Shown: piece by piece, positions 15,415-46,192 of the stretch
Numbering within the stretch: the first letter of the stretch is position 1
How the letters are laid out: each line of letters begins with the position of its first letter
Origin: Paracoccaceae bacterium
GTDB lineage: Bacteria; Pseudomonadota; Alphaproteobacteria; Rhodobacterales; Rhodobacteraceae
Assembly (NCBI GenBank): GCA_024742695.1
Contig: JANSXY010000004.1
Location: forward strand, 1 to 64,000
DNA: 64,000 nucleotides
Direction of reading: 5' to 3'
Notes under the pieces: generated by a model
What the model saw: the letters and a program-made list of their open reading frames with translations, nothing else
The model's database searches: none
What the model was told of the DNA's origin: nothing
Made by a program: the position numbers and the translations under genes

Positions 15415-15445
15415 AAGGCCCCGCCCCGGCGGGGCCTTTTGCGTT
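15415..15445 (+). terminator. Intrinsic terminator after rplQ
   Basis: Ten-base arms (15415-15424 and 15429-15438) with loop CCCG, then TTTTGCGTTT. It closes the alpha operon ahead of rarA. Confidence 0.8.
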
Positions 15446-16896: not shown

Positions 16897-17694
16897 ATGA
16901 CCGCGTTCGACAATCTCGACCTGAAGAACCTTGCCTTTCGCGACGCCGGCGACGGCATCGGCGTGCTGTCGCTGACCCGCGCGGCCAAGCGCAACGCGCT
17001 GGATGCGCAGACCGTCGAAGACCTTGTAGCCTTCTTCGCCGCGCTGCCGCGCTCGGGCGTGCGGGCGGTGGTGATGCGGGCGGAGGGAGACCATTTCTGC
17101 GCCGGGCTCGACCTTGTCGAACACCACCACGAGGATCGTCGGCCCGAGGAGTTCATGCACCTGTGCCTGCGCTGGCACGAGGCGTTCAACAAGATCGAGT
17201 ACGGCGGCGTGCCGGTGATCGGCGCGCTCAAGGGCGCGGTCGTGGGCGGCGGGCTGGAACTGGCCTCGGCCTTCCATATCCGGGTGGCGGACGCGACCAC
17301 CTATTTCGCGCTGCCCGAGGGCCAGCGCGGCCTGTTCACCGGCGGCGGCGCGACGATCCGCGTCGCCGATCTCGTCGGCAAGGCGCGGATGGTCGACATG
17401 ATGCTGACCGGCCGGGTCTACAAGGGCCAGGAGGCGGTGGACGTGGGCCTGTGCCAGTACCTCGTCGAGGACAGCGAGGCGAAGGCGATGGAGATCGCCC
17501 GCGCCGCGGCGCAGAACCCGCCGCTGTCGAATTTCGCGATCTGCTCGGCGATCAGCCACATGCAGAACATGTCGGCGCTGGACGCGGCCTATGCCGAATC
17601 CGTCGTCGCCGGAATCGTCAACACCCAGCCCGCCTCGCGCGAGCGGCTGGAGGCCTTCGCCAACAAGACCGCCGCGCGCGTCCGGCCCGGCTGA
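16897..17694 (+). CDS. Crotonase / enoyl-CoA hydratase family protein
   Basis: 265 residues. The crotonase fold is shown by [13 protein letters not shown] (CoA contact), FCAGLDL (oxyanion loop) and the [20 protein letters not shown] block. The second Glu of typical hydratases appears in the loop [14 protein letters not shown]. The substrate cannot be told from sequence; hydratases, isomerases and lyases share this fold. It stands between rarA and crcB and is followed by the palindrome cluster. Confidence 0.85.
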
Positions 17695-17699
17695 ACGCG

Positions 17700-17729
17700 G
17701 GCAAAATTCTTCGTCCGAAGAATTTTGCC
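17700..17729. repeat. 30-nt palindrome, copy 1
   Basis: Perfect 14-base arms (17700-17713, 17716-17729) around TC. The core is CTTCGTCCGAAG; the outer arm reads GGCAAAATT. It begins five bases after the enoyl-CoA hydratase-family stop. Confidence 0.85.
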
Positions 17730-17760
17730 ACACCCCGCGGTCGGGCCCGCGCACCGCCCG

Positions 17761-17790
17761 GGCAAGATCCTTCGTCCGAAGGATCTTGCC
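17761..17790. repeat. 30-nt palindrome, copy 2
   Basis: Perfect 14-base arms (17761-17774, 17777-17790) around TC. The outer arm reads GGCAAGATC: it differs from copy 1 at several bases, each with a matching change on the other arm. Confidence 0.85.
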
Positions 17791-17808
17791 GACGCACCGC
17801 CACCGGCG

Positions 17809-17838
17809 GCCAAGGTCGTTCGCACGAAAGACCTTGGC
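17809..17838. repeat. 30-nt palindrome, copy 3
   Basis: Arms 17809-17822 and 17825-17838 with one mismatch; centre CA instead of TC. The outer arm reads GCCAAGGTC. It is the most diverged of the four. Confidence 0.75.
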
Positions 17839-17846
17839 GGCGACGC

Positions 17847-17876
17847 CACGAAATTCTTCGTCCGAAGAATTTCGTG
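17847..17876. repeat. 30-nt palindrome, copy 4
   Basis: Perfect 14-base arms (17847-17860, 17863-17876) around TC; outer arm CACGAAATT. It lies 60 bases before the crcB ATG. Confidence 0.85.
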
Positions 17877-17936: not shown

Positions 17937-18326
17937 ATGGTCCAGACCCTTCTTCTTGTCGGCCTTGGCGGCGCGCTGGGCGCGATGGCCCGCTACCTGA
18001 CCGTGGTCGGGGCGGCGCGGCTGTTCGGCACCGGCTTTCCGGTGGGTACGCTGGCGGTGAACGTGCTGGGCTCGTTTCTCATTGGCGTTCTGGCTGTGAC
18101 GATGCTGGGGCCGCGCGGCGCGTCCCCGGCGGTGCCGTTCCTGCTGGCCGGGGTTCTGGGCGGGTTCACGACCTTCTCGGCCTTCTCGCTCGATGCGCTG
18201 AAGCTTTGGCAGGCCGGGCAGGCCGGCGCGGCCGGGGCCTATGTCGCGGCCTCCGTCGGGCTGTCGCTGGCCGCGGTCGCGGCGGGCGCGGCGGCGGGCG
18301 CGGCATTGCGGGGAACCCCGGGATGA
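17937..18326 (+). CDS. crcB: Fluoride ion transporter CrcB (Fluc)
   Basis: 129 residues with four hydrophobic segments. The conserved GGALGAMARY, the FPVGTLAVNVLGSFLIGV segment and GGFTTFSAFSLD (containing the Phe/Thr and sodium-site residues) identify the small dual-topology fluoride channel. The start ATG is preceded by AGAGG. The end overlaps rluC (ATGA). No fluoride riboswitch is seen upstream; the palindrome cluster occupies that space instead. Confidence 0.93.
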   Translation: MVQTLLLVGLGGALGAMARYLTVVGAARLFGTGFPVGTLAVNVLGSFLIGVLAVTMLGPRGASPAVPFLLAGVLGGFTTFSAFSLDALKLWQAGQAGAAGAYVAASVGLSLAAVAAGAAAGAALRGTPG

Positions 18327-37902: not shown

Positions 37903-37979
37903 GCACCCGTAGCTCAGCTGGATAGAGCACCAGACTACGAATCTGGGGGTCGGGCGTTCGAATCGCTCCGGGTGCGCCA
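37903..37979 (+). tRNA. tRNA-Arg (anticodon ACG)
   Basis: A 77-base cloverleaf: acceptor GCACCCG pairs with CGGGTGC, discriminator G, and an encoded CCA at 37977-37979. The anticodon stem CCAGA/TCTGG encloses CTACGAA, giving anticodon ACG at 37937-37939. After A34 deamination to inosine it reads CGU, CGC and CGA. T-arm GTTCGAAT is normal. It is the only tRNA in the window. Confidence 0.95.
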
Positions 37980-46032: not shown

Positions 46033-46192
46033 GTCAGCCCTCCGGCATCGGTTACGTCATATGCCGGAGATGGGCCCGGCGGCGGCATGGTGCAACGGCC
46101 AGACGCACCCGTGGGCGCAACGCGCTGACGGATGGCGATCCCGGCCAATGCCTAGGGACCGGAAGCGGCAAGCCTCCGGGGAAGTGAGGCGG

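Follow-up and report, generated by a model that had tools for sequence, protein, structure and literature searches.

We analysed a 64,000-nucleotide stretch of DNA (the window) in which a gene of the crotonase family and crcB lie one after the other on the same strand. Between them stands an array of four palindromes, separated by 5 nt from the crotonase stop codon and by 60 nt from crcB (Table 1). A preliminary description had reported four inverted repeats of 30 nt separated by 31, 18 and 8 nt, and we found exactly these; the TC centre in three copies and the single mismatch in copy 3 (a G/A pair, around a CA centre) were confirmed as well. A scan of the window for perfect arms of at least 9 nt around a loop of 0-8 nt showed that the longest perfect arms, 14 nt, are those of copies 1, 2 and 4, the next longest being 13 nt. 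As a cluster of palindromes the region is far beyond chance. Its RNA fold reached -104.4 kcal/mol; 200 shuffled versions averaged -68.65, and none of them folded as well (z -7.75). The predicted fold consists of four separate stems. The only Rfam matches over threshold in the window were an ffh sRNA at 46098-46149 on the minus strand and a tRNA gene at 37903-37976 on the plus strand.

Table 1. Palindromes and neighbouring genes in the window, and the four-hairpin arrays of a second genus (genome G024).
Feature	Position	Strand	Description	Match
Hairpin 1	17700..17729	.	perfect 14-nt arms, centre TC, outer type (CTTCG)	R1 match C56:17700-17729, 47.9 bits
Hairpin 2	17761..17790	.	no mismatch in the 14-nt arms, centre TC; has CTTCG, unlike most inner hairpins	48.6 bits
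Hairpin 3	17809..17838	.	14-nt arms, one G/A mismatch, centre CA, inner type	41.1 bits
Hairpin 4	17847..17876	.	perfect 14-nt arms, centre TC, outer type (CTTCG)	42.8 bits
Upstream gene, crotonase family (enoyl-CoA hydratase/isomerase)	16897..17694	+		Pfam ECH_1, 4.3e-33
Downstream gene crcB (CrcB-like)	17937..18326	+	not counted as part of the element	Pfam CRCB, 1.2e-24
G024 arrays	L309:11194-11289, L310:10591-10685, L310:14514-14606, L323:6385-6480, L325:16851-16945, L327:8554-8649, L194:1431-1525		GC-rich style	

The array had been described as sitting where a fluoride riboswitch would be expected for crcB. A fluoride riboswitch, or another 5' control element of that gene, would explain the position before crcB and nothing else. 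No Rfam family reached its gathering score at the array, and no fluoride-riboswitch match appeared at E values up to 5; the best match listed was an unrelated sRNA (E 0.082, below the cut-off). The array hugs the crotonase stop codon, and the nine other arrays of the same genome lie by other genes, none of them upstream of crcB. We regard control of crcB as highly improbable; the crcB neighbourhood is incidental to the array. The preliminary description also mentioned traces of the KILRTKNF or KFFGRRIL kind at the ends of annotated proteins, and these would fit open reading frames that read through the arrays, as seen on the minus strand among the open reading frames of the window.

Searching the 4.16-Mb source genome with a covariance model built from 27 of its own copies (R1), we observed ten dispersed arrays (150 of 1587 candidates scored). 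Nine of them hold four R1-matching hairpins and one holds three; outside the ten, the same 150 scored candidates of 1587 yielded only two weak single matches (E 0.05 and 1.7). The suspicion of a dispersed family was thus borne out by the ten arrays and their relatives in other genomes, and the ten dispersed arrays rule out a local duplication as the sole origin. The 12-mer core CTTCGTCCGAAG has 14 copies in the source genome against 0 for its reversed control. Across the taxonomic family it is a poor marker, being present in 98 of 295 genomes, about the level of the reversed control.

The arrays of the source genome are about 120-180 bp long, with spacers of 0-33 nt. Compared by exact words, the spacers of different arrays have almost nothing in common, the one exception being an 8-mer found in two arrays. 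Flanks show common words of at most 5 nt at eight of the ten arrays and none at two, and the flank of the window's array is the exception, with one common word of 8 nt (again exact words). Neither sign of a MITE or other transposed element, common internal sequence or flanking target duplications, was found in these arrays by exact-word comparison. Among plasmid records, two doublets had no match, and the window's array had one short match, to a Streptomyces plasmid (21% covered, E 3e-3).

The hairpins within an array are of two kinds. CTTCG stands beside the centre in 18 of 20 outer hairpins and in 2 of 19 inner ones, which mostly carry TTTCG (Fisher 5e-7); outer and inner types were scored by eye, so the p-values of such contrasts are descriptive only. 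The usual order is outer-inner-inner-outer, from which the array at C56:236730 departs. Among 97 pairs of adjacent hairpins from ten genomes, 6 have identical 7-nt arms, compared to 13.6 expected from pairs across arrays. Neighbours thus mildly avoid identical arms; genome G103 does the opposite.

We then compared the two arms of each copy. In the 27 copies of the source genome, 97.0% of the pair cells contain standard pairs, 66 cells have changed on both arms compared to 19.3 in shuffles, and compensated changes occur at 9 of the 14 pair positions. The 150 best matches (143 distinct rows, many of them the two strands of one hairpin) gave 96.5% paired cells and 405 double-change cells compared to 151.6 in shuffles. 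With this excess in the 27 copies and with free spacers, the earlier statement that the symmetry is kept and not the sequence holds. That statement allowed for either a fold or a symmetrical protein site, and the data favour the former. The distance between TTCG and CGAA in 38 hairpins of the source genome is 2 nt in 28 and 1 nt in 6 (4 unscored), a variation in spacing that makes a hairpin more likely than a protein site. A symmetric protein operator, which calls for fixed spacing and conserved half-site letters, is disfavoured as a candidate: the spacing is 1-2 nt, and the letters change at the 9 pair positions given above, the core itself being nearly invariant.

The palindrome family is real and wider than the preliminary description supposed. 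At E <=1e-4, R1 matched at least 30 of 394 sampled genomes of the taxonomic family, probably Rhodobacteraceae (strict filters, 18 candidates scored per genome), and the only match among 289 genomes drawn from the class was the source genome itself. R1 largely misses other styles, with only 2 matches in genome G024. Between genera the number of hairpins per site varies from one to four and the centres differ; each genome keeps largely to one style, and none of 2000 permutations clustered centre length by genome as strongly as observed. In G131 the pattern finder gave mostly doublets (31 of 39 clusters) and the palindrome finder single hairpins in 23 of 38, and in G103 the palindrome finder gave triplets in 13 of 18 clusters and a stricter pattern in 6 of 17, so the multiplicity per cluster depends on the detector in these two genomes. 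The centre TTCG-TA-CGAA occurs in 35 of the 38 scored palindromes of G131 (17 more unscored), and the core TTCGCGAA in 4 of 5 scored hairpins of G279. G020 has doublets in 7 of 8 clusters, and most other genomes have one or two hairpins. In 496 kb of other loci, the only genomes to yield clusters with three or more hairpins were the source genome, G024 and G103, plus G347 with a single cluster.

Three further loci deserve mention. In G131, a hairpin doublet is repeated in tandem 92 bp on (L243:1986-2127), which hints at how arrays grow. In G298, a near-identical doublet stands in opposite order at two distant places (L105:2009-2066 and L106:1947-2004). A hairpin in the style of the source genome also occurs in CP059262.1 (L195), a 4.26-Mb metagenome-assembled genome titled Exiguobacterium profundum; the 8 kb examined have 68% G+C and the title looks wrong.

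G024 represents a second genus with four hairpins per array. It has seven such arrays, six in 620 kb and the seventh in another locus; in one array the fourth hairpin contains a mismatch. The 620-kb scan also returned a cluster of 147, an artefact taken as masked sequence, and a cluster of three inside a called gene. The centre TTCGAA was found in 13 of 14 outer hairpins and 2 of 14 inner ones, which mostly have TTGCAA (Fisher 7e-5, by eye). The outer-inner-inner-outer plan thus recurs with quite different letters. The orientation of the array relative to the upstream gene varies in this genome (L309 compared to L325, by eye).

An orthologous hairpin site stands behind a gene that we take to be preA, whose product has a Pfam dihydroorotate-dehydrogenase domain and 4Fe-4S domains. 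At 22 of 53 preA loci the next gene is small and convergent and has no Pfam family (for example L001:1286-1477). Scored by eye, hairpins are present between the two genes at 22 of 22 loci, each from another genus, and at 1 of the 31 preA loci without the small gene. Fifteen of the 22 loci come only from genomes chosen for their R1 matches; in a draw not chosen for R1, hairpins were present at 7 of 7 such loci, the source genome included (30 of 52 matching genomes gave loci). Arms, number and core at the site differ between genera, and the TTCG core is absent in some, such as L143. The number follows the style of the genome: four in the source genome, three in G103, two in G131 and G020, and one in G039. 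G024, which has a different neighbour gene at the end of preA, also carries an array of four hairpins there, GC-rich ones. At the window site itself, no such hairpin was found within 230 nt of the crotonase stop codon in 20 other genera (crotonase identity at least 68%). Two things had been named as pointing to a duplication of local meaning, lack of conservation of the cluster and lack of similar palindromes elsewhere. The first was observed, as the cluster is not conserved after the crotonase gene or before crcB in these 20 genera; the second was not, similar palindromes being widespread.

In the source genome every one of the ten arrays follows a stop codon; convergent gaps hold five of them, codirectional gaps five and divergent gaps none. 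Of the adjoining gene ends, 13 of 15 are no more than about 15 nt from the array and one is about 43 nt away. In one array the stop codon of chorismate synthase lies inside hairpin 1 (L005:1489-1524). Those neighbour genes that Pfam could name are mutually unrelated. We counted 131 clusters in 11 family genomes, of which 64 are codirectional, 54 convergent, 5 called divergent and 8 unclassed, compared to 81 codirectional, 17 convergent and 31 divergent gaps of at least 30 nt in 244 kb of source-genome sequence. The convergent excess (Fisher 6e-8) and the divergent deficit (3.6e-6) against this background become weaker with a smaller background from the window only (2.4e-4 and 0.015). The background represents one genome, and that of G024 is alike (207 codirectional, 45 convergent, 78 divergent); gene calls behind the orientation counts came from a simple codon-usage script, and hairpin-centred loci were set aside as a background because they are biased. 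In an earlier subset of sites, 78 of 118 gene ends lie within 20 nt of the hairpins. This subset of 87 sites had 5 unclassed ones, and the palindromes L208:3154, L229:3728, L241:624 and L256:53 were dropped from it before counting. Most other gene ends of the window with a gap of at least 60 nt are without such hairpins, and with only ten sites in 4.16 Mb the array is not a general terminator. In two further genomes, two palindromic hairpins directly follow the rpoB stop codon and precede rpoC, inside the operon: L063:1500-1558 (G087) and L083:1500-1557 (G002), the genes being identified by Pfam in G087 and by reading in G002.

We lean towards the reading that the arrays are orientation-independent hairpins at RNA 3' ends, serving as exonuclease barriers, as terminators without a U-tract, or as both; from the sequences we infer their transcription, folding in the cell, termination and protection. 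The four palindromes would form one 3'-end element in which each, transcribed from either side, would fold as its own short RNA hairpin. Stable stems in a row would then close the upstream message, or both messages of a convergent pair, starting a few bases past the stop codon. This row would block 3'-to-5' exonucleases, and transcripts ending farther downstream, by Rho or by read-through, would be trimmed back to it. It may also slow RNA polymerase and so act as a terminator array that lacks U-tracts. Having several hairpins would make the element redundant, for instance if the ribosome melted the first one on terminating; the differences between neighbouring hairpins would make each pair with itself.

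The median predicted energy of 38 hairpins of the source genome is -19.25 kcal/mol, and, as in an intrinsic terminator, a stable hairpin stands near the gene end. A U-tract after the stem was not found in these 38 hairpins on either strand: T makes up no more than 3 of the next 8 bases and never occurs more than twice in a row. They are therefore not textbook intrinsic terminators; the arms of the outer type do end in TTTT, inside the stem. The presence of hairpins between rpoB and rpoC speaks against termination being obligatory; it is more in line with a block of 3'-to-5' decay or with partial termination. Elsewhere in the window, the gene ends at 15415 and 22011 have GC-rich hairpins with T-rich tails, and the scan that showed them yielded no overall excess (6 compared to 4.3 in shuffles).

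The same symmetry could instead act at the level of DNA, as a duplex or an extruded cruciform bound by a protein involved in nucleoid structure, topology or replication, and held behind genes by supercoiling or by avoidance of promoters. Pairing is strict: 908 of 920 pairs are Watson-Crick at pairs 4-13 of 92 distinct hairpins. By context the counts are 1265 of 1292 at codirectional and 1238 of 1250 at convergent sites, with a finder that favours perfect palindromes. Such near-total Watson-Crick pairing, also at codirectional sites, counts against an RNA role, because a constraint on the RNA of one strand does not require it. A DNA element would also suit the TTCG/CGAA core, nearly invariant among the 143 distinct rows of the 150 best matches, and the variable array orientation in G024. 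It fits poorly with half-sites whose spacing varies and with whole arms that change by compensated pairs at 9 of 14 positions. Half-changed pairs at codirectional sites, read on the strand of the upstream gene, lean to G-U, with G-U in 12 hairpins compared to A-C in 5 (p 0.07). Other versions of this test gave 9 compared to 3 cells and 17 compared to 3 hairpins. G131 contaminates both the 17-to-3 and the 12-to-5 counts, because in its doublets the finder joined one hairpin to the other. When G131 is excluded, a decision taken after seeing the data, the 12-to-5 count becomes 9 to 2 at codirectional sites, and convergent sites give 4 to 3. This lean weakly favours RNA. Canonical terminators had G-U in 5 of 82 pairs and were set aside, as there were only 9 of them. 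Taken together, we judge a DNA-level element to be improbable.

Dispersed palindromes can also spread for their own sake. REP/BIME elements and REPINs are extragenic palindromes that occur in clusters at gene ends and not between divergent genes, and that go with a RAYT/Y1 transposase and a GTAG foot. The arrays have in common with them dispersal, extragenic clustering, the position at gene ends and the avoidance of divergent gaps. They differ in having neither RAYT/Y1 nor a GTAG foot, in their near-perfect arms and unshared spacers, and in an orthologous site that is kept across genera. A selfish or neutral palindrome of this kind might have been spread by a past transposase or by gene conversion and have survived only where it is harmless, behind genes, its perfect arms arising by template-switch repair of quasi-palindromes and not from function. 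This would accord with the rarity between divergent genes, with a style that is uniform across the genome in each genus, with the near-identical doublets at two places in G298 and the tandem doublet copy in G131, and with the near absence of half-changed pairs. Searching for the Y1 transposase (PF01797), we found 0 in the source genome, while a control search matched in 5 of 14 genomes, and a RAYT-driven REP was rejected for the source genome. GTAG or CTAC within 6 nt was found at 0 of 38 of its hairpins. Spacers and flanks of the copies are unrelated, with flank repeats of at most 5 nt save for the one 8-nt word at the window's array, and the preA site is occupied in 22 genera, each with its own style. 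We hold a REP-like origin to be a serious but unlikely alternative.

Most likely the arrays are 3'-end hairpin arrays of a form specific to this lineage. The WebGeSTer literature describes U-less and tandem terminators in I-, U-, V- and X-shaped classes, defined by shape only. These resemble the arrays as tandem U-less hairpins at gene ends; the arrays differ as a sequence family with a fixed number and an outer/inner order. In the Rhodobacter puf operon, an intercistronic hairpin at a single locus stabilises the message by blocking 3' decay. It is like the present hairpins in lying between genes of an operon, as the rpoB-rpoC palindromes of G087 and G002 do, and unlike them in that the arrays form a dispersed family with a genus-wide style. 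In Zymomonas mobilis, intrinsic terminators show a convergent excess, at 34% compared to 15% of intergenic regions (PMC7566282). Bidirectional intrinsic terminators of that organism share with the arrays a short stable hairpin behind genes and this excess (PMC7566282). The arrays differ from them in having no U- or A-tract outside the stem and a fixed number of hairpins, and in being a lineage-wide sequence family with about ten sites in the source genome.

A search of openly licensed papers, judged by title and the start of the abstract, gave no description of such arrays. They look like an undescribed kind of gene-end marker that would stop or protect mRNA, and not like a switch for crcB. 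What the arrays do show is concerted change of non-coding elements across a genome, and such a change of hairpin style must come about in one of two ways, by selection that a trans factor exerts or by a copying process. One tentative version of the former, which we consider doubtful, is a family-specific 3'-end code, in which an array of fixed architecture would be read by a co-evolving trans factor such as an RNA-binding protein, a nuclease or a termination factor. If true, number, core and centre would be set across the genome and would shift together between genera, and the array would define or protect the ends of a few selected messages without a U-tract. To our knowledge, message ends in GC-rich alphaproteobacteria are not well charted. 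In conclusion, a countable dispersed array with a genus-specific style and 22 of 22 occupied orthologous loci provides a testable handle on these ends.
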